Source: an uncultured Oscillospiraceae bacterium (GTDB lineage: Bacteria > Bacillota > Clostridia > Oscillospirales > Oscillospiraceae). Taken from it: a stretch of DNA of 55,533 nt. How positions within the stretch are numbered: the stretch's first letter is position 1; every line of letters starts with the position of its first letter. Below are positions 39,684 through 52,696 of the stretch, piece after piece. Under the pieces are notes generated by a model, which saw nothing but the letters and a program-made list of their open reading frames with translations, was not told the DNA's origin and ran no database searches. A program made the translations under genes and the position numbers. The stretch is taken from contig CALXDC010000012.1 of the NCBI GenBank assembly GCA_944386975.1, forward strand, positions 1 to 55,533. Direction: 5' to 3'.

Positions 39684-40220
39684 ATGGATCTGCGGGAAAA
39701 AAAGACCAAGCGGAGCATTCGCAGCGCATTTTTGCAGCTGCGGGCCAGAAAGCCCCTGGAGCGGATCACCGTCAAGGAGCTGTGCACCTTGGCAGAGATC
39801 AGCAAGGCCACCTTCTATCTCCACTACCACGACCTGTACGATCTCTCCGACCGGCTGCAGCAGGAGGTGGTACAGAGCATTCTGGCCTGCATCACCCACC
39901 CCGAGCGATTCGTCTCGGAGCATGAGCGGTTTGTGCGGGAGCTGTTTGATGCCTTTCATGCCCAGCAGAATCTCATTGAGATTCTCTTCTCCGACGCCCA
40001 GGCCGCGCTGCTTCCGGTCCGTATCGAGCGGGAGCTGAAGGAGATGATCTACCGCCTGGAGCCGTCGCTCCGTGAGGACGTCACTCGCAACATTCTCCTC
40101 ACCTACCAGATTCAGGGAGGGTTTTCCGCCTATATGGAGCACCGCCGGGAGTTCGGGGCGGACCGGGTACGGGACACCATCGGCCGCTTTTCGACGCTGC
40201 TGTCCGACGGTCTCTCCTGA
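39684..40220 (+). CDS. TetR-family transcriptional regulator
   Basis: This 178-residue protein begins MDLREKKTKRSIRSAFLQL and has a TetR helix-turn-helix (ITVKELCTLAEISKATFYLHY, near 32-52), a form common to the Firmicutes DhaS/FadR-like group with a TetR_C domain. AGGAGG lies 7 bases before the ATG at 39684; an in-frame start 27 bases earlier has no ribosome site. Likely targets are its own gene and perhaps glgB or the downstream CarboxypepD-repeat gene (93 bp away); the ligand is unknown. Confidence 0.88.
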   Translation: MDLREKKTKRSIRSAFLQLRARKPLERITVKELCTLAEISKATFYLHYHDLYDLSDRLQQEVVQSILACITHPERFVSEHERFVRELFDAFHAQQNLIEILFSDAQAALLPVRIERELKEMIYRLEPSLREDVTRNILLTYQIQGGFSAYMEHRREFGADRVRDTIGRFSTLLSDGLS

Positions 40221-40312
40221 GGCCAGCACCCTCCCGTGGCAAGCGGCATAGGATGGGACGTGCGGGCAGAAGCCCGCGCCACCACTTCAGAACCCACAGG
40301 AGGATTGTTTCT

Positions 40313-41167
40313 ATGGCTGACATGCTCCAGGATCTCTACGGCCTGCAGTATAGCCCCAGCTTTACCATTGAGGGGCAGCAGGAGGCGGACGTCAATCTCA
40401 GCCTGCCCCCCGCACCCAGTACCCTGGCCTCGGTCTACGGTACGGTTACCGACGGTGCCGCCCCCATTGCCGACGCCACCGTCAAGCTCTTCGACAGCGC
40501 CGGGCTCCCCTACCGTCATACCGTCACCGACGCCTCCGGCGCCTATGCGATTGACGGAATTCCTGCCGGGACCTACAGTCTGGCGGCAGTGGCCGACGGC
40601 TATCGGGTCAGCGACGCGGCAGGGGTCACCCTGTCCGGCGGCGCATCCACGGAGATCCCCATTGTCTGCACCCTGGACACTACTCTGGCTTTGGGCGCCA
40701 TTGCCGGCGTGCTCTCCGTGGCGGGGGCCGCCGTTTTCACCCCGTTGGCAGGGGCCAAGATTACGCTGAAGGGCGCCCTGGGGGCCGATGTGGCCGCCAC
40801 CTATACGGCGGACGACGGCGAGTTCGTGTTCTACGACGTGGTCGATGGGAGTTACACCCTGATTGCTACCGCCGACGGCTATCTGGCCACCGCGCCCATG
40901 ACTGTCACCATCCTGGGCGGCTCCATCGCCAACGTGACTATGTCCATGACGGTGGATGAGCGCACCTACAACGGCACCGTCAGCGGCGTCATCCGGGACC
41001 AGAACGGCGCCGCTGTGGCAGGCTGCTTCGTAGGGCTCTACCAGCTGAATGCGGGGACGGGCAGCGAGACCCTCCTGGCCACCACCAAGACCAACGCGCT
41101 GGGAAACTATCTCTTCGGCGGCGTCAGCAGCGGTCAGTATCTTGTCAAGGCCAAGCTGAACGGTTAA
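40313..41167 (+). CDS. Carboxypeptidase-regulatory-like beta-sandwich repeat protein
   Basis: This 284-residue protein has three CarboxypepD_reg/CNA-B-like Ig-fold repeats (about 38-120, 130-210 and 220-284). Each has the pattern G-V-x-D, then A-x-V-x-L, T-D-A-x-G-x-Y/F and a G-x-Y-x-L/V-x-A end (for example TVTDASGAYAIDGIPAGTYS). A short N-terminal segment (MADMLQDLYGLQYSPSFTIEG) carries no signal peptide or anchor, which is odd for a domain family that is normally extracellular. AGGAGG is 9 bases before the ATG. It lies after the TetR gene and may share its transcript. Its partner and function are unknown. Confidence 0.75.
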   Translation: MADMLQDLYGLQYSPSFTIEGQQEADVNLSLPPAPSTLASVYGTVTDGAAPIADATVKLFDSAGLPYRHTVTDASGAYAIDGIPAGTYSLAAVADGYRVSDAAGVTLSGGASTEIPIVCTLDTTLALGAIAGVLSVAGAAVFTPLAGAKITLKGALGADVAATYTADDGEFVFYDVVDGSYTLIATADGYLATAPMTVTILGGSIANVTMSMTVDERTYNGTVSGVIRDQNGAAVAGCFVGLYQLNAGTGSETLLATTKTNALGNYLFGGVSSGQYLVKAKLNG

Positions 41168-41229
41168 ATCTTCACCGCAGCGCTCCCTTCTGCCTTCGCG
41201 ATGGGGAGGAGGCGGGGATCTCCCTCCGC

Positions 41230-41541
41230 ATGAGGGAGCCCTATGATCGATGCTCCGTGCTGCTGCGGTCCTGCCGCCCCCTGGAGTGGGCGGCTCTCGG
41301 GCAGAGGGGACACTGCTCCGTGCGGGAGGCGCTGCGGGCGGAGACGGTATTTTTTGCCGCTCTCCGCCCCGGCGCCGCCCGGCTGACCATGGGGCGGAAG
41401 GGCCGGACGGCGGCGCTGCTGCTGCGGCTGCCTCCGGGGGCCAACATAGAGATTCTGTGGGACGCCCAGGGCCGCCTGTGCTGGCGGCGACTGGCCGGTC
41501 CCTGCTTCTACAATTCCAGGCCCCATGTCCTGATGCTGTGA
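41230..41541 (+). CDS. Hypothetical 103-residue protein
   Basis: This reading frame starts ATG 63 bp after the repeat-protein gene and ends 1 bp before a strong terminator, which supports a transcription unit ending here. The ribosome site is poor (GGAGGAGG is about 17 bases upstream). The product is Arg/Leu/Cys-rich with no recognised domain; LLLRLPPGANIEILWDAQGR looks like a beta-hairpin region. An overlapping minus-strand frame exists but has no supporting signals. It may be a genuine small gene or GC-driven noise. Confidence 0.35.
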   Translation: MREPYDRCSVLLRSCRPLEWAALGQRGHCSVREALRAETVFFAALRPGAARLTMGRKGRTAALLLRLPPGANIEILWDAQGRLCWRRLAGPCFYNSRPHVLML

Positions 41542-41542
41542 C

Positions 41543-41588
41543 AAGCGCGCCGCCCCGGAGCATCTGCTCTGAGGCGGCGCGCTTTTTT
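41543..41588 (+). terminator. Terminator after the repeat-protein unit
   Basis: A 12-bp perfect stem (41543-41554 with 41573-41584) with an 18-base loop is followed by a six-T run. Confidence 0.92.
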
Positions 41589-41621
41589 GCCTTCCGGCCG
41601 GTCGGGCCGGTTTGCTGCCCT

Positions 41622-42207
41622 CTGACGGGGGCGGAACTTTTTTGTCGGTATCCGACGGTGTTTGGTTTGGTGTTCTGCCTCCGGCGGCCTACTTTTGTTG
41701 CTGAACAAAAGTAGGCAAAAATCAGCTTAGAACCTACGGTTCTAAGGACTCCCTTATCTCCTGAGCTTGGAAATCTTAATGCCCTGGCGGGACTGTCTGC
41801 CCCTGACGCAGCAAGGGGGTGACAGTTCCCCTGTTTCCGCGCTTTAAGCGCGCTGCCCTGGTGGTGGTAGGGGCTTTTGCTCCGAAGCGATCAGACTTGC
41901 CAACACCGCAGGCACTCATTTGCGGAAAAACGGTAGACGAAAGAATCGGCGTCTACCCAACAGATCAGCGCGCTTAAAGCGCGGCGCAGAAGCAGAAGAC
42001 GACCCAAAACAGCGTCACTCGCAGAAAGCCTCCGAACAAAAGCATCCCTGACCATCCGGTCTTGGTAACAAATAAAGGAGTTCTTAGAACCTTGGTTCTA
42101 AGCGGACTTTTGGTGACTTTTCTTCCGCGAGAAAAGTCACCCGCCGGAGGCAAAACACCAAACGAAATACCGTCGGATACCGGCAAAAAAGCCAAAATCC
42201 CCGTCAG
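41622..42207. repeat. 586-bp multi-hairpin element with terminal inverted repeats, copy B
   Basis: The ends are CTGACGGGGG and CCCCGTCAG, matching copy A at nearly identical length. Read as the reverse complement, the interior matches copy A, for example the CGCAGAAGCAGAAG stretch and the CCCCTGTTTCCGCGC stretch. The left arm of B carries the loop seen in the right arm of A and the reverse, so orientation is clearly inverted. Like copy A it lies between convergent genes and between two terminators. Confidence 0.88.
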
Positions 42208-42236
42208 CGATACAAAAAACCGGGGGGAGATCATAC

Positions 42237-42256
42237 AAAGGGGGCTCTCCCCCTTT
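42237..42256 (-). terminator. Hairpin at the ylmC-like stop codon
   Basis: An 8-bp stem AAAGGGGG/CCCCCTTT with a 4-base loop overlaps the last bases of the stop codon. The T-run after it is short. Confidence 0.5.
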
Positions 42257-42545
42257 ATAATCGACACCTCCCCCTGCGGTTTGGTCGGCAGGGCTCCCGG
42301 CGCTGGAAGGGCTTGTCGATCAGAATGATGTCGTCCCCGATCTGCCGGATGCAGTCCCAGGGGATGTAGTAGTCCTCCCCCCTGCCGAACAGGCCGAAAA
42401 ACCGGCAGGGCCCCGGCACGATGATGGCCGTCACCTTCCCGTCGGGCAGGCAGATCTCCACATCCCCTACAAACCCCAGCCGGCAGCCGTCGTTGATATT
42501 GATGACCTCCTTGTACCGCATCTCCACCATTCTGCACTGCTGCAT
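42255..42545 (-). CDS. YlmC/YmxH-family PRC-barrel protein
   Basis: This 96-residue protein shows the YlmC/YmxH signature MRYKEVININDGCRLGFVGD near the start, followed by EICLPDGKVTAIIVPG, then FFGLFGRGEDYYIPWDCIRQIGDDIIL (in two parts). The family is a PRC-barrel group found in endospore formers. It starts at ATG 42545 with AAAGGAGG 10 bases upstream, though the internal ATGs at MVEM or MRYKE could be used. The C-terminus is Cys/Arg-rich. A long terminator-like palindrome separates it from the dlt-like operon. Confidence 0.9.
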   Translation of the reverse strand: MQQCRMVEMRYKEVININDGCRLGFVGDVEICLPDGKVTAIIVPGPCRFFGLFGRGEDYYIPWDCIRQIGDDIILIDKPFQRREPCRPNRRGRCRL

Positions 42546-42599
42546 ACCCTTCCCGCCTCCTTTGGGAAAGCCTATGCGGCTTCCAGACTGTCCTATGAC

Positions 42600-42639
42600 A
42601 AAAAGCGATTGGGAATCCATGGATTCCCAATCGCTTTTT
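42600..42639 (-). terminator. Terminator of the dlt-like operon
   Basis: A 19-bp perfect stem (42600-42618 with 42621-42639) begins with five A and ends with five T. It lies 3 bp after the stop of the SGNH-deacetylase gene. Confidence 0.93.
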
Positions 42640-42642
42640 CCC

Positions 42643-44463
42643 TTATCCCCGGAGGAGCTCCAGCAGCGCCGCGCCGCTGATCTCCTCCACGTTGTACCGC
42701 CCCAGGCCGTAGAGGCACTGGGGAAGGCCCTTGATGAGGACGTTGGTCCGGGCCTCGGTGGTGAAGGTGGCCTTCAGGCCAAGCTTCGCGCACAGGGCCT
42801 GACTCAGAGTGGTGTAGTCCCCATTGGGGTAGGCAAGAGCCGTCACCGGCTCCCCCACCCCCGCCCGGATCTCCGCCATGGACTGCTCCATGTCGGTGAG
42901 GAAGGCCGCCATGTAGTCCTCCTCACTCTCCCCCTCCAAGGGCACCGCAGAGGTGCGGGCAGGGGCGGCATCCAACTGGGCGGACTGGTGCATGTCGTAG
43001 GTGTGGCTCTGGATGGAGATGACCCCACTCTCCGCCATCTCCCGGGCCTCCTCATAGGAGAAGTGGGGGGTGATGGCAACGCCGGTGTCCTTGTAGGTGT
43101 CCTTCCCCACGGAGACGCCGATGGTGAAGATCACCGCCTCCATGCCGTACTCCTCCAAGATGGGGAAGGCGATCTGGTAGTTGCTCTCGTACCCGTCGTC
43201 AAAGGTGATGAGAATGGGCTTCTCCGGAAGGTCTCTCCCCTCCTCCACATAGGCGTAGAGGTCGTCGAGACTTACTGCCGTGTACCCCGCCTCATGGAGG
43301 GCGGCGATCTGCTCTTCAAAGCAGTCCGCCGAGATGGTGACGCCGCCATCCCCCTCCTCCGCGATGTGGTGGTACATGAGGACGGGAACTTCACAGGTGT
43401 AGCCGCTGTCCTCAAGGCCGCCGGTGCGGTTTGTGAGGGTCCTCACGTGGTCCGCTACATTCTCCGCCGTCACGTAGGCCCCGAAGTCCTCGGGGATATA
43501 GATGCTGTCGTCCCCGAACATCTTCGCCAGGGCCATGTCCCCCACGGCGTTGCGGAAGTGGGTGGCATCGTAGAAGTACCGGGGCTCCCAGCTGACGGAG
43601 CTGTAGGTGAAGTCCCAGTAGTCCGTCACCTCGGCGAGAGCGGTGTAGAAGGCCGTCAGGTCCTCATCGGTGAAGGTGTTGAGGTACTCCCCGTACACCG
43701 GGGCACAGACCACGTAGAGGTCCACATCCGCCGCCTCGCACATGTCCCGGATGGCGGCCACGCTCTTCATGGTGTTCTCGATCTCCCCCATCCGGGCGGG
43801 GTAGACGGGGTAGTCGGTGAATACCGGGTAGGCTTCATAGTACCGCTCCAAATCCCCGATGTTCTCCACGTCCCGGGCCCGCTTGTCGTAGGCCCCGGTC
43901 TCCTCGTCAAAGACGTCGAAGGTCTGGGACAGTTCCGTGTCCGCCGCCTTGTCCTTCAGCTTGTCCAGGATGTAGTTGGGGTCCGCCAGAAGGTAGCCCC
44001 CGTAGAAGGACACCGGGTTCTCCCCGCTGACCTCCCCGTGGAGCTTCAGGGTCAGCTGGTCCTGGCCGGTGTCGTAGGTAACACCGTTGTCCACATACAC
44101 GTTGAGGACGATGTTGCGGACGGTGCAGTTGTCGAGAAGCCACCCCACCGTCTCCTCCGCGTCCTTCATGTCCACCCCGTAGGAGATGGTGTTGTAAAAG
44201 GAGGCGTCCAGATATTCATTCAGGGCGTCCACCGGGTAGGAGCTGGTGGAGCTGCACCCCACCAGATAGGAGTCATACTCCGACCCGTGCTCCTTCAAAT
44301 AGGTGGTCTTGGCCACCCGGGGGTTCAATGTCTCGCTGAAGGAGTACCAGGTCATGTTGCCGAAGACGGCGAAGGGGTCCACGATGAAGTTGGCCGCCAT
44401 CAGCAGCAGCGGGAGGGACAAAAGACACCCCAAAAACATGAAGACCCATTTTTTTGACTGCAT
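42643..44463 (-). CDS. SGNH-like domain fused to CE4 polysaccharide deacetylase, membrane-anchored
   Basis: This 606-residue protein has an N-terminal anchor helix (about 6-27). A DltD/AlgJ-like SGNH domain follows, with Ser block YLVGCSSTSSYP (about 67-77) and the DxxH block YDATHFRNAVG (Asp near 299, His near 302). A CE4 deacetylase domain (about 372-606) follows, with LMYHHIAEEGDGG, ITFDDGYESNY (metal Asp near 422) and SHTYDMH (near 485). The protein should act outside the cell. It stands where DltD stands in dlt operons, and the deacetylase is an addition. The gene starts 12 bp after the MBOAT stop with AAGGAGG upstream. It may transfer an acyl or aminoacyl group and remove acetyl groups from the same polymer; this is inference. 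Confidence 0.85.
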   Translation of the reverse strand: MQSKKWVFMFLGCLLSLPLLLMAANFIVDPFAVFGNMTWYSFSETLNPRVAKTTYLKEHGSEYDSYLVGCSSTSSYPVDALNEYLDASFYNTISYGVDMKDAEETVGWLLDNCTVRNIVLNVYVDNGVTYDTGQDQLTLKLHGEVSGENPVSFYGGYLLADPNYILDKLKDKAADTELSQTFDVFDEETGAYDKRARDVENIGDLERYYEAYPVFTDYPVYPARMGEIENTMKSVAAIRDMCEAADVDLYVVCAPVYGEYLNTFTDEDLTAFYTALAEVTDYWDFTYSSVSWEPRYFYDATHFRNAVGDMALAKMFGDDSIYIPEDFGAYVTAENVADHVRTLTNRTGGLEDSGYTCEVPVLMYHHIAEEGDGGVTISADCFEEQIAALHEAGYTAVSLDDLYAYVEEGRDLPEKPILITFDDGYESNYQIAFPILEEYGMEAVIFTIGVSVGKDTYKDTGVAITPHFSYEEAREMAESGVISIQSHTYDMHQSAQLDAAPARTSAVPLEGESEEDYMAAFLTDMEQSMAEIRAGVGEPVTALAYPNGDYTTLSQALCAKLGLKATFTTEARTNVLIKGLPQCLYGLGRYNVEEISGAALLELLRG

Positions 44464-44475
44464 CTTCCGTCCTCC

Positions 44476-46035
44476 TTAAAACTGCGCGTAGATGAACTCC
44501 GCCGCCACGTAGCCCTGGCCCACGGCCCCCAGCAGCACGATCACCAGCAGGGGCACCATCACCATGGCCCACTGGGCCAGGGCGCCGCGGCCCTCCATCC
44601 ACTTGCGGACGTGGCCGCCCTTCTCCTGGTACCACTCCACGGCGGTGACCACCACCATACCCAGGGCCACCACCCAGTAGTCGAAGGCGGTGAGACCGAA
44701 GGAGAGAAGGGTGCCGTCGGTGAAGCTCTGGAGCTGGAAGTCCGTCACCGTGGCCCGGATCATGGCCAAGGCCGTGATGAGCCGGGGGGCCCGGGTCATA
44801 TACCGCCCCACGAAGACGATGAGGCTGGTGCGGGCCATCTGGAAAAGGTGCCAGCCCTTGCCGTCCCACCGGATGGGGATCCGCTCCCGGAGCTTCACGA
44901 AGGTGGGCTCCAGAAGGAGGCCGGCGGTGATGAGGCCGCCGTTATAGAAGCCGTAGGCGATATAGCGGAAGTTGGCCCCGTGCCAGATGCCGATGACGAA
45001 GTAGACCACGAAGGTGGCCATGGAGGTGGCGAAGATTTTCCCCATGACGCCGCCGAAGTGCTTGCGGGCAAAGGAGCCCAGCTTTCGAAAGCCGCTGGAG
45101 AGGGCGATGGGATAGAACACATAGTCCCGCATCCAGCCCCCCAGGGTGATGTGCCAGCGCCGCCAGTACTCCGTGAGGCTGAGGGCGAAGAGGGGGCGGC
45201 GGAAGTTCTCCGCCATGTCGATGCCCAGCATCTGGCCCACGCCCCGGGTGATGTCGATGCCGCCGGAGAAGTCGCAGTAGAGCTGGATGCTGTAGCCCAG
45301 CACCGCCGCCGCCATCATGGACCCGGAGTAGCCCCACACGTCGGCGAACACGGCGTTGACCATGACCCCGATGCGCTCGGCGATGACCAGCTTCTTGAAG
45401 TAGCCCCACATGCACAGCTGGATGCCGTACTTCAGCTGGTCCCAGTCGAGCTGGTGCTCCCCCAAAAGCTGGGGACCCAGCTGATCGTACCGGGCGATGG
45501 GGCCCTGGATGATCTGGGGGAAAAAGGACACAAACAGGGCATAGCGCCCCAGGTGCTCCTGGGGCGCGTATTTTCCCCGATAGCAGTCGATGACGTAGCC
45601 GATGGACTGGAAGGTGAAAAAGGACACCCCCAGGGGCATCAGCAGGTCCGGCGCGGGCAGGTGGAAGCCGGAGGCGTTGTTCACCACCTCGGCGGTGAAG
45701 CTCCAGTATTTGAGGATATAGAGAAGGCCGAAGTTGAGAAGGCAGGCGGCCAGCACCACCTGTTTCTTCCTCCGGTCAAAGGATGGCTTTTTCGCCTTCC
45801 GCTCCTCGGCGGGCAGGGCCTTCAGGCGGCGGTTGAGCCCGCCCAGAAGCCGCCCCGCGAGATAGGTGGAGCAGGTGGTGATGAGAAGATACACCACCGT
45901 CTTTCCCCCGCCCCAGAGGTAGAAGGCGTAGCTGGCCAGGAGCAGCAGCGCCCACTGGAATTTCCGGGGGACCAGGTAGTAGAGCACCACCAGGACCCCC
46001 AAAAATACCAGAAACGTCAAGGAGGTAAAGGACAT
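44476..46035 (-). CDS. MBOAT-family O-acyltransferase (DltB/AlgI-like)
   Basis: This 519-residue integral membrane protein has about eleven hydrophobic helices. The family features are RPLFALSLTEYWRRWHITLG with WMRDYVFYPI and the catalytic-His segment FVIGIWHGANFRY (His near 351). In DltB this protein takes the acyl group from the carrier protein thioester on the inside and passes it across the membrane. It starts 5 bp after the carrier gene and is followed by the SGNH-deacetylase gene. The GMG motif and other features cannot assign the acyl group. Confidence 0.93.
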   Translation of the reverse strand: MSFTSLTFLVFLGVLVVLYYLVPRKFQWALLLLASYAFYLWGGGKTVVYLLITTCSTYLAGRLLGGLNRRLKALPAEERKAKKPSFDRRKKQVVLAACLLNFGLLYILKYWSFTAEVVNNASGFHLPAPDLLMPLGVSFFTFQSIGYVIDCYRGKYAPQEHLGRYALFVSFFPQIIQGPIARYDQLGPQLLGEHQLDWDQLKYGIQLCMWGYFKKLVIAERIGVMVNAVFADVWGYSGSMMAAAVLGYSIQLYCDFSGGIDITRGVGQMLGIDMAENFRRPLFALSLTEYWRRWHITLGGWMRDYVFYPIALSSGFRKLGSFARKHFGGVMGKIFATSMATFVVYFVIGIWHGANFRYIAYGFYNGGLITAGLLLEPTFVKLRERIPIRWDGKGWHLFQMARTSLIVFVGRYMTRAPRLITALAMIRATVTDFQLQSFTDGTLLSFGLTAFDYWVVALGMVVVTAVEWYQEKGGHVRKWMEGRGALAQWAMVMVPLLVIVLLGAVGQGYVAAEFIYAQF

Positions 46036-46040
46036 ACCCT

Positions 46041-46265
46041 TTACGCCTGGAGCCGCTGGATCAGGTCCAGCATGGCGGCCACGGAGTTGAAGTTCTCCGG
46101 CACCAGGTCGTCCACGGAGATGGTGACGCCGTAGGTGTCCATGATGGCGGAGACGATGGTGACGATGTCCAGAGAATCCAGAATTTCGTCGTCGATGAGG
46201 GCCTCAGACCCGGCGAAGTCGATGCCGGGGCAGGTCTCGGTCAAAAGCTGCAGCAGTTCTTCCAT
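46041..46265 (-). CDS. Free-standing acyl/peptidyl carrier protein (DltC-like)
   Basis: This 74-residue protein has the phosphopantetheine motif DSLD (Ser 31) in EILDSLDIVTIVSAI, and an acidic helix-rich sequence. It should carry an activated acid as thioester. ATG 46265 is preferred over an in-frame TTG two codons earlier, because AAAGGA is 9 bases from the ATG but only 3 from the TTG. It sits between the GNAT gene (stop 2 bp upstream of its ATG) and the MBOAT gene. The Sfp-type transferase at 2807-3433 could activate it. Confidence 0.92.
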   Translation of the reverse strand: MEELLQLLTETCPGIDFAGSEALIDDEILDSLDIVTIVSAIMDTYGVTISVDDLVPENFNSVAAMLDLIQRLQA

Positions 46266-46267
46266 AG

Positions 46268-47041
46268 TCAATCATCCTTTCTTATGAAAACGGCCGCGGT
46301 CCATCCGTCGGGACAAAAGCCGTTTTTCTCGTAAATGTGCCGGGGGGCGGCATAGTCCTCCCGGACCCACACCACGCTCCCCTTTTCGCCAAAGCGCCGG
46401 GTGAACTCCGCCGCGAGGCTCCCGGCCAGCCCCTCCCCCCGATGGGCGGGGTCCGCCGCTAAGTGGCGCAGCTCCCAGCCCTTCCGGTAGGGTGCGGAGC
46501 GCAGCAGGGCAATGAGCCGCCCGTCCGTATCCCGGCGGGTGAGGACCCGGCCTTGGGCGCAGTCCGCCGCCAGCTCCTCCCGGTCCGGGAGGCAGCCGGT
46601 GCGGGGATCGAAGCACCGGTGGAGGAGGTCCATGGCCTCCCCGGCCTCCACCGCCTCCGGCGGCGGCAGGGCCTCACCGGTCTCTCTGCCCGGCCGCTGC
46701 ATCCGCATCCGGGTGAATTCCCGGGAAAAGCCCCAGGACTGCCAGAGGTCCGCCTGAGCGGCGGTATCCCGGGGGCGGCGGACGATCTCCGTCACCACCT
46801 CCCCGGGCCAGGGAAGGTCCGGCGGGCAGGTAGGGTCGTTTACATAATAGTACATCCGCCAGAATCCCTCCCGCCTCTTGAAGAGGAGGAGCCCCCCCTC
46901 CCACCGGTGGACCCACAGGGTCCCGGCGGCGATCTCCCGGCGGAGGTCCTCGCCGGAGAGGGTGCAGTTTGTCATCAGGCCCGGCCGCAGGCTGGCGGAG
47001 ATGGCGGCGGCGAGGGCCTGGTAGTCATCGGCCTGTCTCAT
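46268..47041 (-). CDS. GNAT-family N-acetyltransferase
   Basis: This 257-residue protein has a GNAT domain in its C-terminal half, with the acetyl-CoA loop HLAADPAHRGEGLAGSLAAEF (split near 213) and the ending ENGF-like RHIYEKNGFCPDGW. The N-terminal half (about 1-120) may be a degenerate second GNAT domain (WVHRWEGGLLLFKRREGFWRM). The ATG overlaps the adenylation gene by 17 bp, with AAGGA upstream, so translation is coupled. GNAT is not a usual dlt component. It could acetylate the amino group of the activated amino acid or of the carrier-bound product; this is inference. Confidence 0.85.
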   Translation of the reverse strand: MRQADDYQALAAAISASLRPGLMTNCTLSGEDLRREIAAGTLWVHRWEGGLLLFKRREGFWRMYYYVNDPTCPPDLPWPGEVVTEIVRRPRDTAAQADLWQSWGFSREFTRMRMQRPGRETGEALPPPEAVEAGEAMDLLHRCFDPRTGCLPDREELAADCAQGRVLTRRDTDGRLIALLRSAPYRKGWELRHLAADPAHRGEGLAGSLAAEFTRRFGEKGSVVWVREDYAAPRHIYEKNGFCPDGWTAAVFIRKDD

Positions 47042-48545
47042 GGAAATAGGCGTCCTTCAGCTTCACCCGGTCCACCTTGCCGTTGGCGTTGTGGGGCAGG
47101 AGGTCCAGCTGCCGGAAGACGTTGGGCTGCATATACTTGGGCACCAGAGTTTTGAGGTGGCCCAGGATGGCGGCGGGGTCCGCCTCCCCGGCGTAATAGC
47201 AGACGATGGCGTCCTGGGGGGCGTCGAAGAAGCAGATGGCGTCCTTCAGGGGGGCGAAGCTGGCCAGAGCCCGCTCGATCTCCCCCAGCTCGATGCGGTA
47301 GCCCATGTGCTTGATCTGTCCGTCCTGCCGGGACTGGAACACCAGCAGGCCTTCCTCGTTCACCAGGGCGATGTCCCCGGTGCGGTAGATCCGGTCCGGG
47401 TAGTGGGGAGTCAGGGGGTTCTGGATGAAGGCGGCGGCGGTCTTCTCTGGGTCCCGGAAGTAGCCGTGGGCCAGACCGGAGCCACGGATGCAGATTTCAC
47501 CGGGGGTGCCCTGGGGCACCGGCTTCAGCTGCTCGTCCAGCAGGAAGACCTCCTTGTTGGCGCAGGCGGAGCCGATGGGGATGGGCTCGTAGTCCGCAAA
47601 GGTCCGGTCCACCTTGTACCAGGCGGCGTCCACGGTGGTCTCCGTGGGGCCGTAGAGGTTGACGTAAGTCACCTCCGGCAGGGCGGCGCGCCAGAGGTTC
47701 AGATCCCGCGCCAGCATGGCCTCCCCTCCCGCCAGCAAAATCCGCAGGTGCGCCGGGCGGTGCTCCGCCAGAACGCCCGAGGCCGCAACCAGATGGAAGG
47801 CGGAGGTGGCCCACTGGAGGGCGGTGACCTTCTTCTGGTTGAGGTAATCCACCAGGAGCTTGGGGAAGAGGAAGAGCTTCTTGGGCAAAATCTCACAGGT
47901 GGCAGCGCACTTGACGGTCATGTACAGGTCCTTCACAGAGCCGTCGAAGTAGAAGGGGGCCTGGTTGCCCAGCACGTCCTTCTCGGAAAATTCCCCGGCC
48001 TCCGCCAGCCACTCCGCCAGGTCCATGACGCCCCGGTGGTGGCAGACGATGCCCTTGGGCACGCCGGTGGAGCCGGAGGTGAAGATGATGTACACCGGGT
48101 CCGTGTCCAGCACCGACGCGCGCCGCCAGGCCAGCAGGGCCGGGTCCTCCAGCTCCGTGAGGTGGGCGCTGATGGACTCCATGGGATACCGGTCCCGCAG
48201 CTGGGCCGCCAGCTTCTCATCGCTGTCGCCGTAGAGGACCACCGGGGTCTCCAGCTGGTCCAGAATGGCCTCCAGCCGCTTCCGGGGCATCTGGCCGTCC
48301 AGAGGCACGTAGCAGCAGCCGCACTGGAGGGCGGCCATGAAGGCGATGGGGCTGCGGACCCCCCGCTCCACCAGCACGGCAATGGGGGTGCGGTTCACCG
48401 GCGCCTGCCGGGCCAGCCAGGTGCCGAGACGGCGGGATTTCTCCTCCAGCTCCCGGAAGGTCACGGCGCTGTGCTCATCGGCAAAGGCCGTCTTGTCCGG
48501 CAGCCGCCGGGCCGTGGCCTCCAAATATTCCACAACATTCCGCAT
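47025..48545 (-). CDS. Stand-alone amino acid adenylation enzyme (DltA-like position)
   Basis: This 506-residue protein is an ANL-superfamily adenylation domain that activates an amino acid as AMP ester and loads it on the carrier. The motifs are YIIFTSGSTGVPKGI (151-166), FDGS (Asp 201, which binds the alpha-amino group), NLYGPTETT (296-304), YRTGD and the C-terminal NGKVDR with catalytic Lys. At the DltA FCGE position it has LAGGE (271-275), so the Cys that favours D-Ala in DltA is missing; the substrate may differ. The ATG at 48545 has AAAGGA upstream. It is the first gene of the operon, with a promoter at 48598-48626. Confidence 0.92.
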   Translation of the reverse strand: MRNVVEYLEATARRLPDKTAFADEHSAVTFRELEEKSRRLGTWLARQAPVNRTPIAVLVERGVRSPIAFMAALQCGCCYVPLDGQMPRKRLEAILDQLETPVVLYGDSDEKLAAQLRDRYPMESISAHLTELEDPALLAWRRASVLDTDPVYIIFTSGSTGVPKGIVCHHRGVMDLAEWLAEAGEFSEKDVLGNQAPFYFDGSVKDLYMTVKCAATCEILPKKLFLFPKLLVDYLNQKKVTALQWATSAFHLVAASGVLAEHRPAHLRILLAGGEAMLARDLNLWRAALPEVTYVNLYGPTETTVDAAWYKVDRTFADYEPIPIGSACANKEVFLLDEQLKPVPQGTPGEICIRGSGLAHGYFRDPEKTAAAFIQNPLTPHYPDRIYRTGDIALVNEEGLLVFQSRQDGQIKHMGYRIELGEIERALASFAPLKDAICFFDAPQDAIVCYYAGEADPAAILGHLKTLVPKYMQPNVFRQLDLLPHNANGKVDRVKLKDAYFHETGR

Positions 48546-48597
48546 GGCTTGATTCCTTTCACAGTGCGGAGGCAGTCTCCGCATAGAAATACAGTTT

Positions 48598-48626
48598 AGT
48601 ATACCACACTGTCCCCCGCATTGCAA
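48598..48626 (-). promoter_or_regulatory. Promoter of the dlt-like operon
   Basis: Minus strand -35 TTGCAA (48621-48626), 17-base spacer, -10 TATACT (48598-48603) with TG before the -10. The leader has a 7-bp hairpin (TGCGGAG/CTCCGCA) shortly before the ribosome site. Confidence 0.8.
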
Positions 48627-48716
48627 ACGTTTCTTCCTCTTTGTTCCCGTCCACACCGGCCCGGACACGTTTTTTCTCAACAGACCGCCCCGCACCCATC
48701 CGGAACAAAACCGAAA

Positions 48717-48738
48717 GGGCGCCGCTTGTGCGGCGCCC
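48717..48738 (-). terminator. Terminator of the small membrane protein gene
   Basis: A 9-bp perfect GC stem (48717-48725 with 48730-48738) with a TTGT loop is followed on the minus strand by TTTCGGTTTTGTT. Confidence 0.85.
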
Positions 48739-48809
48739 CTCCCCTGTAGTCTCCCATTTTCCCTTTTTCCGGTCCGGGCCTCCGGGGCGGACCAGGCCCC
48801 TGAGCATGT

Positions 48810-49328
48810 TCACCGCGGCCGTCCAAAGCCCAGCAGCCGCCGCCAGTCCCGCCGCCACCGGAGAGACAGACGGCCCAGCAGCCGGTCCAGGAGGAGAAAG
48901 ACGGCCTCTCCCAGAAGGAGCAGAAGCCACCGCATCCAGGCCGTCTCCTCCGGCAGCCCCAGCAGCAGTCTTCCCAGCCCGTCAATAAGGAGGAGGGCGA
49001 CAGTCCACACCGCCAGCTTGCCAAGGCCCCGGACCCACCGGCGGCGGATGCGGTCCAGAGGCCCCTTCACCGCCGGGTAGAATCCGGCGCAGGCGAACAC
49101 CAGAGCCGCCTCCGGCTCCGGCGTCAGCAGCGCCCCCACAGCCGCCGCCGCGGCATAGGACGCCAGGGCCCAGCCGGCGCCCGCCTCCTCCGCCGCCACC
49201 GCCAGGGGCAGCATGGCCAGCACCGGTCCGCAATAGGTCGCCAGAGGCAACGCCCCCGTCAGCAACAGCGCTGCGCTCAGCGCCGCCATCATGGCGCACA
49301 GGGTCAGCCGCCGCACCTTCGCCGCCAT
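48810..49328 (-). CDS. Integral membrane protein, possibly ECF S-component-like
   Basis: This 172-residue protein starts MAAKVRRLTLCAMMAALSA and has about five hydrophobic segments. A basic start followed by an Ala-rich helix (TLCAMMAALSAALLL) recalls S-components of ECF transporters, but no substrate motif is seen, and a YybS-like family is also possible. The C-terminus is Arg-rich (RLSLRWRRDWRRLL). ATG 49328 has GGAGGAGG 7 bases upstream; a longer frame to 49427 has no ribosome site and would include the promoter. It is monocistronic. Confidence 0.65.
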   Translation of the reverse strand: MAAKVRRLTLCAMMAALSAALLLTGALPLATYCGPVLAMLPLAVAAEEAGAGWALASYAAAAAVGALLTPEPEAALVFACAGFYPAVKGPLDRIRRRWVRGLGKLAVWTVALLLIDGLGRLLLGLPEETAWMRWLLLLLGEAVFLLLDRLLGRLSLRWRRDWRRLLGFGRPR

Positions 49329-49356
49329 GCTCCCGCCTCCTCCCCCGTTTTTTCCC

Positions 49357-49385
49357 ATCATAGCCCGGCAAGACCGGGAAGTCAA
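49357..49385 (-). promoter_or_regulatory. Promoter of the membrane protein gene
   Basis: Minus strand -35 TTGACT (49380-49385), 17-base spacer, -10 TATGAT (49357-49362). Confidence 0.7.
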
Positions 49386-49410
49386 CGGCCAAATTTCCAT
49401 CCATAGCCCC

Positions 49411-49439
49411 TTTACATATTCGAACAAATGAACTATAAT
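49411..49439 (+). promoter_or_regulatory. Promoter of the SLOG-dinB operon
   Basis: -35 TTTACA (49411-49416), 17-base spacer, -10 TATAAT (49434-49439). The spacer contains CGAAC, one half of a Firmicutes LexA box, but the second half does not match. Confidence 0.75.
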
Positions 49440-49474
49440 GTAGCTGAAACGACACAGAGAGAGGAGGGCCTGCC

Positions 49475-49984
49475 ATGCGCGCGCGCCCCATCACCTGCTG
49501 CTTCACCGGACACCGGCCCTCCAAGCTGCCCTGGGGGCGGAACGAGGAGGATCCCCGGTGTCTCAGCCTCAAAGATCGTATCCGGGACGCGGTGGACGCC
49601 GCCTACGAGGAGGGCTTCCGCCACTTCATCTGCGGCATGGCCAACGGCTGCGACTTCTACTTTGCCGAGGCGGTGCTGGCCCTCCGGACCCGCCACGGGG
49701 ATGTGACGTTGGAGGCCGCCGTCCCCTGCCCCACCCAGGCGGACCGCTGGGAGGAGGCGGACCGGCGGCGGTATCAGGAGCTGCTGGCGGCCTTCGACTT
49801 CGAGACTCTGGTCCAGGACCACTACGGCCCCGGCTGCATGCAGCGGCGCAACCGCTACATGGTGGACCACAGCGCCCTGCTCATCGCCGTGTACGACGGC
49901 ATGCCCGGGGGCACCCGCCAGACCCTGGAGTACGCCCTGCGCCGGGGGGTGTCCTTTGTGGACCTCCGGCCGGAGGGGAGGTGA
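49475..49984 (+). CDS. SLOG-family (DUF1273/YspA-like) protein
   Basis: This 169-residue protein belongs to the SLOG (SMF/LOG-like Rossmann) superfamily. The N-terminal CCFTGHRPSKLPWG and the middle ICGMANGCDFYFAEAVLAL are the family motifs; SLOG proteins bind or process nucleotides, and DUF1273 relatives act in stress or phage-linked contexts. GAGGAGG is 7 bases before the ATG. It precedes dinB with only 4 bp between, so the two are probably one operon and may share a DNA-damage response; that link is inferred. Confidence 0.88.
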   Translation: MRARPITCCFTGHRPSKLPWGRNEEDPRCLSLKDRIRDAVDAAYEEGFRHFICGMANGCDFYFAEAVLALRTRHGDVTLEAAVPCPTQADRWEEADRRRYQELLAAFDFETLVQDHYGPGCMQRRNRYMVDHSALLIAVYDGMPGGTRQTLEYALRRGVSFVDLRPEGR

Positions 49985-49988
49985 GGGG

Positions 49989-51206
49989 ATGGACCGGACC
50001 ATCCTCCACTGCGACCTCAACTGCTTCTACGCCTCGGTGGAGCTTCTCAGCCTGCCAAGGCTCAAGAAGCTGCCGGTGGCGGTGTGCGGCGACCCCTCCT
50101 CCCGCCACGGCATCATCCTGGCCAAAAACGAGCTGGCCAAGTCCTTCGGCGTGAGGACGGCGGAGACGGTGTGGCAGGCAAAAAAGAAGTGCCCGGAGCT
50201 GGTGCTGGTACCCCCCCACCACGACCGCTACCGGACCTATTCCCAAAAGGTCAACGCCATCTACCTCCGCTTCACCGACCTGGTGGAGCCCTTCGGCATC
50301 GACGAGAGCTGGCTGGACGTCACCGGCTCCCTCCACCTCTTCGGCGGCGATGCCGGGGCTCTGGCGGACCGGATCCGGGCCACGGTGGGCCGGGAGCTGG
50401 GGCTCACACTGTCGGTGGGGGTCAGCTTCAACAAGGTCTTCGCCAAGCTGGGCAGCGACTACAAAAAACCCGACGCCACCACCGTCATCGGCCGGGACAA
50501 CTGGCGGGAGATTGTCCACCCCCTGCCGGTGGGGAGCCTCCTCTTTGTGGGCCGGGCGGCGGAGGAGGCCCTGGGGCAGTACGGCATCCGCACCATCGGC
50601 CAGCTGGCCGGGGCAGATCGGGAGCTTCTCACCGACCGGCTGGGCAAGCTGGGGGGCCAGCTCCACGACTATGCCAACGGCCTGGACCGGTCCCCGGTGC
50701 GGCCCTGGCACCAGAGGGAGCCGGTGAAGAGCGTGGGCAACGGCACCACCTTCTCCCAGAACCTCACCACCGTGGACCAGGTCCGGGCGGGGACGGCCCT
50801 CCTCTGCGACAGCGTGGCCATGCGCCTGCGCCGCCAGGGACTCTGCTGCAGCGGCGTTCAGGTGACGGTGAAGGACCCCCAGTTCCGGGTGATCTCCCGG
50901 CAGAAGCAGCTGTCCCACGGCACCCATCTCATGAAGGAGCTCCAGGCGGCGGCCATGGAGCTGATCCTCTCCGCCTGGAAGCCCCCAGACCCCATCCGCC
51001 TCATCACCGTCACCGCCATCCATCTCACGGAGGAGGGGGAGACCTACCGCCAGACGGACCTCTTCGCCGACCCGGAGGAGGAGCGGCGGCAGCAGCGGCA
51101 GGAGAAGCTGGAGCAGGCCATGGACGCCATCCGGGGCCGGTTCGGGAAGGACGCCATCGCCTTCGGCTCCCCCGGGGAGACCGGCGGCAGAGGGGATCTG
51201 CCGTAA
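49989..51206 (+). CDS. dinB: DNA polymerase IV (Y family)
   Basis: Pol IV copies past damaged bases at low fidelity. The 405 residues begin MDRTILHCDLNCFYASVE (catalytic Asp 9), with DESWLDVTGS (Asp/Glu near 104) and the little-finger domain in the C-terminal half. A beta-clamp motif QTDLF is near 353. ATG 49989 has a GGAGGTGAGGGG run just before it. It is 4 bp after the SLOG gene and ends with a terminator. The family is variably SOS-regulated; only a LexA half-site is seen. Confidence 0.95.
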   Translation: MDRTILHCDLNCFYASVELLSLPRLKKLPVAVCGDPSSRHGIILAKNELAKSFGVRTAETVWQAKKKCPELVLVPPHHDRYRTYSQKVNAIYLRFTDLVEPFGIDESWLDVTGSLHLFGGDAGALADRIRATVGRELGLTLSVGVSFNKVFAKLGSDYKKPDATTVIGRDNWREIVHPLPVGSLLFVGRAAEEALGQYGIRTIGQLAGADRELLTDRLGKLGGQLHDYANGLDRSPVRPWHQREPVKSVGNGTTFSQNLTTVDQVRAGTALLCDSVAMRLRRQGLCCSGVQVTVKDPQFRVISRQKQLSHGTHLMKELQAAAMELILSAWKPPDPIRLITVTAIHLTEEGETYRQTDLFADPEEERRQQRQEKLEQAMDAIRGRFGKDAIAFGSPGETGGRGDLP

Positions 51207-51253
51207 GGGGACGGCGGACAACCTGCCGCTATTTGGGCCGCAGGCAGGGGACA

Positions 51254-51286
51254 ACAGGGGAAATCCTCGGGTTTCCCCTGTTTTTT
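51254..51286 (+). terminator. Terminator of the SLOG-dinB operon
   Basis: The stem ACAGGGGAAA/TTTCCCCTGT with an 8-base loop is followed by six T. Confidence 0.9.
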
Positions 51287-51320
51287 GTGCAAATTTACAG
51301 GGAAGATACCAGAAAAACAG

Positions 51321-51349
51321 TTGCAAATTCCCAGCAGTCCCATTATGAT
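51321..51349 (+). promoter_or_regulatory. Promoter of the aspartate aminotransferase gene
   Basis: -35 TTGCAA (51321-51326), 17-base spacer, -10 TATGAT (51344-51349). Confidence 0.75.
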
Positions 51350-51418
51350 AGAGGGGACGCTGAAACAGCGGCATGCCGGGGAGCCCGCTCCGCGGCGCCG
51401 GAAAGGAGACAAACCAAC

Positions 51419-52696
51419 ATGAAAGCATATTCCGCAATGACCCGTGAGGAGCTGACCGCCGCCTATGCCCAGGCGCAGGCGGAGTTTGAGGCCGTGAAGG
51501 CCAAGGGGCTGCAGCTGGACATGTCCCGGGGCAAGCCCGGCGCTGAGCAGCTGGACATTGTTATCGGCCTGCAGACCGTTTTGAAGGACAATGAGGACTG
51601 CTTTGACGGCAAGCTGGACTGCCGCAACTACGGTACCCCCATGGGCATCCCCTCCTGCCGCCAGCTGTGGGCGGACATCCTGGGGGTGAAGGTGGAGCAG
51701 GTGATGGCCGCCGGCAACGCCAGCCTCAACCTGATGTACGACACCGTGGCCAAGGCCTACACCCACGGCCTTCTCCACAGCGAGAAGCCCTGGTGCAAGC
51801 TGGACAAGATCAAGTGGATCTGCCCTGTCCCCGGCTATGACCGCCACTTCTTCATCTGCGAGACCTTCGGCATTGAGATGATCCCCGTGGCCATGGACGA
51901 CAACGGCCCCGACATGGACGCCGTGGAGGAGCTGGTGAAGGATCCCGCCGTGAAGGGCATGTGGTGCGTGCCCAAGTACTCCAACCCCTCCGGCTGCATC
52001 TACTCGGAGGAGGTGGTGGAGCGCATCGCCGCCATGAAGCCCGCCGCTCCCGACTTCCTGCTCATGTGGGACAACGCCTACTGCATCCACGAGTTTGAGG
52101 GCGACTTCGTCCCCTTCCCCAACATTCTGGACCTGTGCGAGAAGCACGGCAACCCGGATATGGTGGTGGAGTTCGCCTCCACCTCCAAGGTAACCCTCCC
52201 CGGCGCCGGCGTGGCCTGCATGGCCACCAGCGAGGCCAACATGAAGCACCTCATGAAGCTGATGAGCTTCCAGACCATCGGCTATGACAAGATGAACCAG
52301 CTGCGCCACGTGCGGTATCTGAAGGACAAGGAGAACACCCTGGCCCTGATGAAGAAGCACGCCGCGGTGCTGGGTCCCAAGTTCGCCGCTGTGGTGGACG
52401 GCCTGGAGCGTGAGCTGGCGCCTCTGGGCTTCGCCAGCTGGAGCCACCCCAAGGGCGGCTACTTCGTCAATCTGGACGTGATGGAGGGCACCGCCAAGCG
52501 GACCGTGGCCCTGTGCAAGGAGGCCGGCGTGGTGATGACCCCCGCTGGCAACCCCTTCCCCTACGGCAAGGACCCCAAGGACAGCAACATCCGCATCGCC
52601 CCCTCCCTGCCTCCCAAGGCGGAGCTGGAGGCCGCGGTGGAGGTGCTGTGCGTCTGCGCCAAGCTGGCCGCTCTGGAGAAGCTTCTGAACAAGTAA
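51419..52696 (+). CDS. Aspartate aminotransferase, subgroup Ic type
   Basis: This 425-residue PLP enzyme fits the Asp_aminotransf family (AAT subgroup Ic). It begins AYSAMTREELTAAYAQAQAE, has LQLDMSRGKPGAEQLD near 31-46, KYSNPSGCIYS, the MWDNAYCIHEF segment with the PLP-stacking Asp/Tyr, and the Schiff-base lysine in EFASTSKVTLPGAGV (near 256). It exchanges the amino group of aspartate with 2-oxoglutarate; substrate breadth cannot be read. AAAGGAG is 10 bases before the ATG. It is monocistronic. Confidence 0.93.
   Translation: MKAYSAMTREELTAAYAQAQAEFEAVKAKGLQLDMSRGKPGAEQLDIVIGLQTVLKDNEDCFDGKLDCRNYGTPMGIPSCRQLWADILGVKVEQVMAAGNASLNLMYDTVAKAYTHGLLHSEKPWCKLDKIKWICPVPGYDRHFFICETFGIEMIPVAMDDNGPDMDAVEELVKDPAVKGMWCVPKYSNPSGCIYSEEVVERIAAMKPAAPDFLLMWDNAYCIHEFEGDFVPFPNILDLCEKHGNPDMVVEFASTSKVTLPGAGVACMATSEANMKHLMKLMSFQTIGYDKMNQLRHVRYLKDKENTLALMKKHAAVLGPKFAAVVDGLERELAPLGFASWSHPKGGYFVNLDVMEGTAKRTVALCKEAGVVMTPAGNPFPYGKDPKDSNIRIAPSLPPKAELEAAVEVLCVCAKLAALEKLLNK

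Follow-up and report, generated by a model that had tools for sequence, protein, structure and literature searches.

Two plans of MBOAT–SGNH acylation are set apart in PMC12148441: the Dlt system uses a carrier protein and the microprotein DltX, whereas the other MBOAT–SGNH pathways, among them PatA–PatB peptidoglycan O-acetylation, work without both and are fed by acyl-CoA. The same paper describes how the MBOAT PatA acylates the tyrosine of its own C-terminal FXYXXF motif, from which PatB takes the group. Here we describe a five-gene operon that appears to merge the two plans, and that has, beyond them, an acetyltransferase for the carrier stage and a deacetylase as a fused domain. It lies in contig CALXDC010000012.1 (assembly GCA_944386975.1) of an uncultured Oscillospiraceae bacterium; the stretch analysed, hereafter the window, comprises positions 1 to 55,533 (55,533 nt). 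A first-pass annotation, made from the sequence alone, had placed the five genes correctly: all five open reading frames (ORFs) are intact on the minus strand, from 48545 down to 42643, some of them overlapping and none separated from the next by more than 12 nt.

A, stand-alone amino-acid adenylation enzyme: 47025..48545, minus strand, 506 aa; TIGR01733; pocket code DGKQLALVDK
G, tandem GNAT: 46268..47041, minus strand, 257 aa; acetyl-CoA loop RGEGLA, residues 201-206
C, acyl carrier protein: 46041..46265, minus strand, about 74 aa; PP-binding; attachment Ser33 (numbered from TTG 46271)
B, MBOAT: 44476..46035, minus strand, 519 aa; WHG His352; C-terminal acyl-shuttle motif FIYAQF (Tyr516)
D, SGNH–CE4 fusion with membrane anchor (helix 3-28): 42643..44463, minus strand, 606 aa; SGNH Ser71, Asp299, His302; PgaB/PplD-like CE4 Asp422, Asp423, His487, His492

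The reading frames of A and G share 17 nt, and gaps of 5 and 12 nt separate C from B and B from D. C may start at TTG 46271, 4 nt within G, or at ATG 46265, 2 nt past G, which is the start in the closest relative. Pfam recognises A (AMP-binding, 4.1e-67), G (Acetyltransf_1, 1.5e-6), C (PP-binding, 3.8e-6), B (MBOAT, 3e-16) and D (Polysacc_deac_1, 3.7e-21); the SGNH half of D is invisible to Pfam but clear in the predicted structure, DltD structures being among the fold matches.

The operon had been called dlt-like in the first-pass annotation. What stands of this is the logic (activate, carry, cross the membrane, transfer): as in Dlt (DltA, DltX, DltB, DltC, DltD), an adenylation enzyme, a carrier, an MBOAT and an SGNH protein are encoded in one operon, and the acyl group would be carrier-fed. 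Membership in the canonical Dlt system, however, is ruled out. Indeed, when the Dlt models were applied to the window proteins, A scored 269.9 bits with TIGR01734 (cut-off 559.85) and 282.3 bits with NF003417 (cut-off 476), C scored 19.6 bits with NF003464 (cut-off 68) and 13.0 bits with TIGR01688 (cut-off 52.35), and B scored 144.8 bits with the DltB model TIGR04091 (cut-off 375), its sole NCBIfam match. The operon further differs from Dlt by its extra GNAT, by the fusion of CE4 with the SGNH domain, by a shuttle motif on the MBOAT and by the lack of DltX, for which the operon, to which the search was limited, leaves no room (tightly packed genes and a leader of about 50 nt).

B has the features of the MBOAT in MBOAT–SGNH acyltransferase pairs, namely the WHG catalytic histidine and the C-terminal FIYAQF, an instance of FXYXXF; Tyr516 is present in 19/19 and His352 in 17/19 of the aligned MBOATs. 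Unlike PatA–PatB and the other MBOAT–SGNH pairs, which are described as carrier-free in PMC12148441, the operon encodes a carrier and a loader, and, as judged from the genes present, does not fit an acyl-CoA donor without carrier. Because FIYAQF and WHG stand on B while carrier and loader belong to the same operon, its sequence is that of a hybrid, in which a carrier-fed supply like that of Dlt would be joined to a PatA-like shuttle borne by the MBOAT. The operon is Dlt-like in its working but falls outside Dlt; its best place is among the MBOAT–SGNH acyltransferases, as a carrier-fed, deacetylase-fused variant with an exchangeable loader. A literature search covering titles and the openings of abstracts (subscription papers and preprints lay outside it) returned no MBOAT operon with an adenylation enzyme, a GNAT and an SGNH–CE4 fusion. 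As side observations, the catalytic histidine is replaced and the C-terminal tyrosine kept in several related MBOATs (WQG in L067, L097, L098, L106 and L127; WAG in L076, L079 and L194), and the window's genome has three other MBOAT genes (G000:C24:25060-25989, C6:81212-81901 and C21:38662-39267).

The five-gene order is conserved. Arrangements were tallied over 122 loci, namely the window together with L051-L080, L082-L161 and L191-L201, which gave 114 distinct loci after removal of seven duplicates and of L133 (no match over threshold); L082-L161 are the 80 best-scoring out of 528 candidates that the D alignment picked up in named genomes, so that the tally is not a frequency. The annotation had proposed a search for the same order across Oscillospirales, and A-G-C-B-D indeed recurs in 33 distinct loci (L215-L222 are not among them). 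The other arrangements with A or G were A-G-C-B (3 loci), A-C-B-D (7) and A-B-D (1); those with an FkbH-type gene were B-D-C-FkbH (10) and FkbH-C-B-D (1); in the remainder, B-D occurred twice and a split CE4-MBOAT-SGNH once, D stood alone in 9 loci and CE4 in 41, and six arrangements were seen once each (C-B-D, C-D, G-C-B-D, B-SGNH, A-G-B and A-C-G), some of the loci being cut by contig ends. Among the best 80 of the 528 candidates, fused D proteins came mostly from uncultured Oscillospiraceae and other Clostridia.

The annotation had also set the GNAT between the activation and carrier genes, and surveys of genomes bear this out. At the family level, the GNAT was found in 16 of 250 genomes, between A and C in all 16, with D directly next in 14. 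At the class level (391 genomes), 44 genomes had a GNAT match at E 1e-10, of which 12, the window's included, covered about 200 or more of the 261 positions; in the 11 further genomes with a near-full-length GNAT, the gene directly followed A in 10 and the complete order was present in 8. At the phylum level (398 genomes), two more genomes, of one genus, had the GNAT and the complete order. Within the window's own genus, an A homologue (E 1e-50) was present in 8 of 11 genomes, with an identity of 73-100% in five and of 42% in three, and absent at that threshold from the other 3; the complete order was found in four of the five closer ones (the window's genome, G212, G638 and G641), and the contig of the fifth, G642, ends within B.

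All five genes are under purifying selection, with dN/dS values relative to G212, from the same genus, of 0.078 (A), 0.216 (G), 0.023 (C), 0.079 (B) and 0.120 (D). Gene distances were correlated for all ten pairs (r 0.74-0.90), with 0/2000 permutations as high, in a Mantel test on 30 of the 33 A-G-C-B-D loci (L087, L096 and L112, cut by contig ends, were excluded). A chance neighbourhood is ruled out by the 33 distinct loci with the same order, the purifying selection and the correlated distances.

A is an amino-acid adenylation domain protein by TIGR01733 (347.6 bits, cut-off 317.4). Asp235 and Lys517 are kept in 45/45 rows of its alignment, and the pocket code has Lys at position 239 in 39/45 rows and Asp at 331 in 38/45. 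A resemblance of the window's code to those for glutamate-type substrates is no more than a lead; the code differs from that of DltA. The substrate is probably a polar or acidic amino acid and not D-alanine. At position 331, the eight A proteins without GNAT have Asn in four cases and Asp in four, and three GNAT-positive rows depart from the pattern (L199, Asn; L076 and L077, Cys); with this spread, presence of the GNAT is not simply mirrored in the code. As an aside, the WQG MBOATs of L097, L098, L106 and L127, which lack the GNAT, coincide with Asn at this position.

The supply module is exchangeable: it consists of A and G, of A alone or of an FkbH-type loader, and the D fusion is the fixed part. 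FkbH proteins load glyceryl groups on carriers, and an FkbH-type protein replaces A in 11 loci (L062, L064, L066, L070-L073, L080, L102, L105 and L111; duplicates L095, L103 and L121), with 234.7-276.8 bits for TIGR01686 (cut-off 146.65) in the 3/3 tested. Thus FkbH takes the loader's place near equivalent C, B and D genes in relatives, whereas none was found at the window operon, where A and G serve. Note that a small divergent gene resembling, by eye, an Sfp-type phosphopantetheinyl transferase adjoins B in three of these loci (L070, L071 and L073), and that the MBOAT of L062:1638-3467 (= L095) is spread over three frames, being either a broken gene or a sequencing error.

D shows a NodB-type fold with the Asp-Asp-His-His site of CE4 enzymes, and its Ser-Asp-His triad is intact in the window and in 30-31 of the 32 rows of the D alignment. 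A two-domain enzyme in the DltD position, as annotated, is therefore what is found, and a fusion created by a sequencing error, which the annotation had named as a way in which it could fail, is ruled out, since 31/32 aligned rows are fused. Compared with the CE4 de-N-acetylases PgaB, IcaB and PplD, the CE4 domain of D is fused behind an SGNH domain, and the protein falls below the cut-off of the PgaB equivalog TIGR03938 (131.3 bits, cut-off 321.9). PgaC/IcaA, of the PNAG locus, had no match over cut-off and four weaker ones in the window's genome (90% complete, 96 contigs).

The exceptions tell the two halves apart. In L069:8379-10211 and L101:7908-9749, D lacks the SGNH catalytic residues and keeps those of CE4, and no MBOAT was found in either locus; this suggests that the SGNH half depends on an MBOAT and that the CE4 half does not. 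This dependence is no rule, however, as other D-alone loci, such as L099, L104, L107 and L108, keep the SGNH residues. The one unfused case, L131:5679-9032 (Tissierellaceae), has a CE4 lipoprotein-like gene, an MBOAT gene and an SGNH gene as three neighbours; neither a carrier nor a loader was found there.

Taken together, we favour a carrier-fed MBOAT–SGNH acylation system coupled to polymer de-N-acetylation, a reading to which we give an even chance. First, A would activate a free amino acid, one that is probably polar or acidic, and load it on the phosphopantetheine of C. Second, G would use acetyl-CoA to acetylate the amino group (or a side chain) of the carrier-bound amino acid. Third, the acyl group would cross the membrane from C via B, onto Tyr516 of B's own FIYAQF, by analogy with PatA. 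Fourth, on the outer side, the acyl-tyrosine would hand it over to Ser71 in D's SGNH domain, which would place it on a hydroxyl of a surface polymer. Finally, the CE4 domain of D would strip N-acetyl groups from amino sugars of the acylated polymer.

The second step is the one most exposed to an alternative. G is a GNAT by its Pfam match, its fold and its acetyl-CoA loop, whose pattern [QR]xxGx[GAS] is present in 13/16 and 11/15 rows of two sets, and Ser33 of the carrier is invariant (16/16 rows). G differs from mycothiol synthase MshD and other tandem GNATs in being encoded between adenylation and carrier genes, with an identity of 14%. As the pocket of A fits a free amine, acetylation may follow activation and take place on the carrier-bound amino acid. 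G could instead spare this amino acid and act on a free precursor, on a side chain ahead of activation or on some unrelated metabolite, the polymer then receiving an unmodified amino acid; we hold this to be somewhat unlikely, though worth serious weight. In its favour, presence and absence of the GNAT on a tree of 43 A proteins (midpoint root; L199 and L201 excluded) requires four changes, all forced by well-supported branches, while A persists; with this root, the direction would be mostly loss. L058 and L059, which adjoin the window's clade, lack the GNAT, have just 49 nt between A and C, and have a pocket code (DGKQVVLVDK) that is nearly the window's. From these two loci and the four changes, the GNAT looks like an old and separable gene that was lost repeatedly, i.e. 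an accessory step. G is also the fastest-diverging of the five genes. Against this alternative, nearly every genome that has G has it between A and C, the divergence of G follows that of A (r 0.85), and a short GNAT-like gene occupies the same slot of another A-C-MBOAT operon in L215-L217. The annotation would have been weakened by relatives with canonical dltABCD and a GNAT absent or frameshifted; this did not come about, the GNAT being present for 35/43 rows of the A tree.

This other operon, found in three further genomes of the window's genus, is of a second type: it encodes a large lipoprotein with VCBS-like repeats (by eye), an A protein 42% identical to the window's, the short GNAT-like protein, a carrier and an MBOAT of about 400 aa. 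The GNAT-like gene was recognised by eye in translation in L217 and on weak profile scores (17-18 bits) in L215 and L216.

As to the last two steps, the two domains of D could work on the same atom: CE4 would free an amino-sugar amine and the SGNH domain of the same polypeptide would acylate that amine, an acetyl being swapped for an aminoacyl or glyceryl group. The fusion is kept under every loader (A and G, A, FkbH) and all seven active-site residues are present in 30/32 D rows, as such an N-acyl exchange would have it; but the two domains are separate genes in L131, CE4 probably acts alone in L069 and L101, and known MBOAT–SGNH pairs make esters. This exchange has little direct support, and we consider it improbable.

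Alternatively, G would acetylate the carrier-bound amino acid to protect it against cyclisation or hydrolysis, and CE4 would remove this acetyl outside, after transfer. An acetylase and a deacetylase do flank the transfer steps in one operon. However, CE4 is kept in the 7 A-C-B-D loci without GNAT and in the 11 FkbH-type loci (10 B-D-C-FkbH, 1 FkbH-C-B-D), and 41 loci have related CE4 proteins but none of the other genes, so that such protection and deprotection seems highly improbable. Because CE4 persists in these operons, it most likely acts, as far as gene content can tell, on amino sugars of the acceptor polymer and not on the product of the GNAT.

Finally, a diverged dlt operon performing ordinary D-alanylation of a teichoic-type polymer, for which speak the like order of steps, DltA among the best matches of A, the sole NCBIfam match of B and DltD among the structure matches of D, is very hard to credit given the far-from-reached Dlt cut-offs for A, B and C, the missing place for DltX, the lack of any PF04464 (Glyphos_transf) match in the window's 90%-complete genome and a pocket code unlike DltA's.

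The operon had been annotated as having its own promoter and terminator, and the flanking signals agree with a separate transcription unit.

Sigma-70-type promoter-like site: 48598..48627, minus strand, consensus match alone
Terminator-like hairpin: 42600..42639, minus strand, 18-bp stem, 3' end a T run

The promoter-like site ends 53 nt upstream of the start of A and consists of two overlapping matches, for a chance mean of 1.0. Folding gave the hairpin downstream of D -30.5 kcal/mol (z -7.5); a terminator pattern scan missed it, probably because its T run lies within the stem, and picked up a second terminator-like site upstream of A (48742-48713). Rfam gave no match at the gathering threshold in window positions 40000-52000. 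Just past the operon terminator, on the minus strand, lies a gene for a YlmC/YmxH family sporulation protein (42255-42620; TIGR02888, 85.1 bits).

The operon is a recurring new variant of the known cell-envelope acylation systems: conserved in Clostridia, it probably serves to load a carrier with an amino acid, which it may acetylate, and to bring this group across the membrane and onto a surface polymer by way of an enzyme that also takes off acetyl groups. The relatives form a natural series (A and G, A alone, FkbH, no loader found) that offers a way to test how MBOAT–SGNH machines choose their acyl group. More speculatively, and with a slim chance of being right, Clostridia would possess a modular envelope-editing machine, in which a fixed MBOAT (with its tyrosine shuttle) and SGNH–CE4 protein exchange acetyls of amino sugars for interchangeable payloads (aminoacyl, N-acetyl-aminoacyl or glyceryl); if so, a single polypeptide would take the acetyl off a residue and put a new acyl group in its place. 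The FkbH-type relatives of C, B and D predict a glycerate group on a surface polymer, and the polymers of gut Clostridia would be expected to bear amino-acid and possibly glycerate groups.

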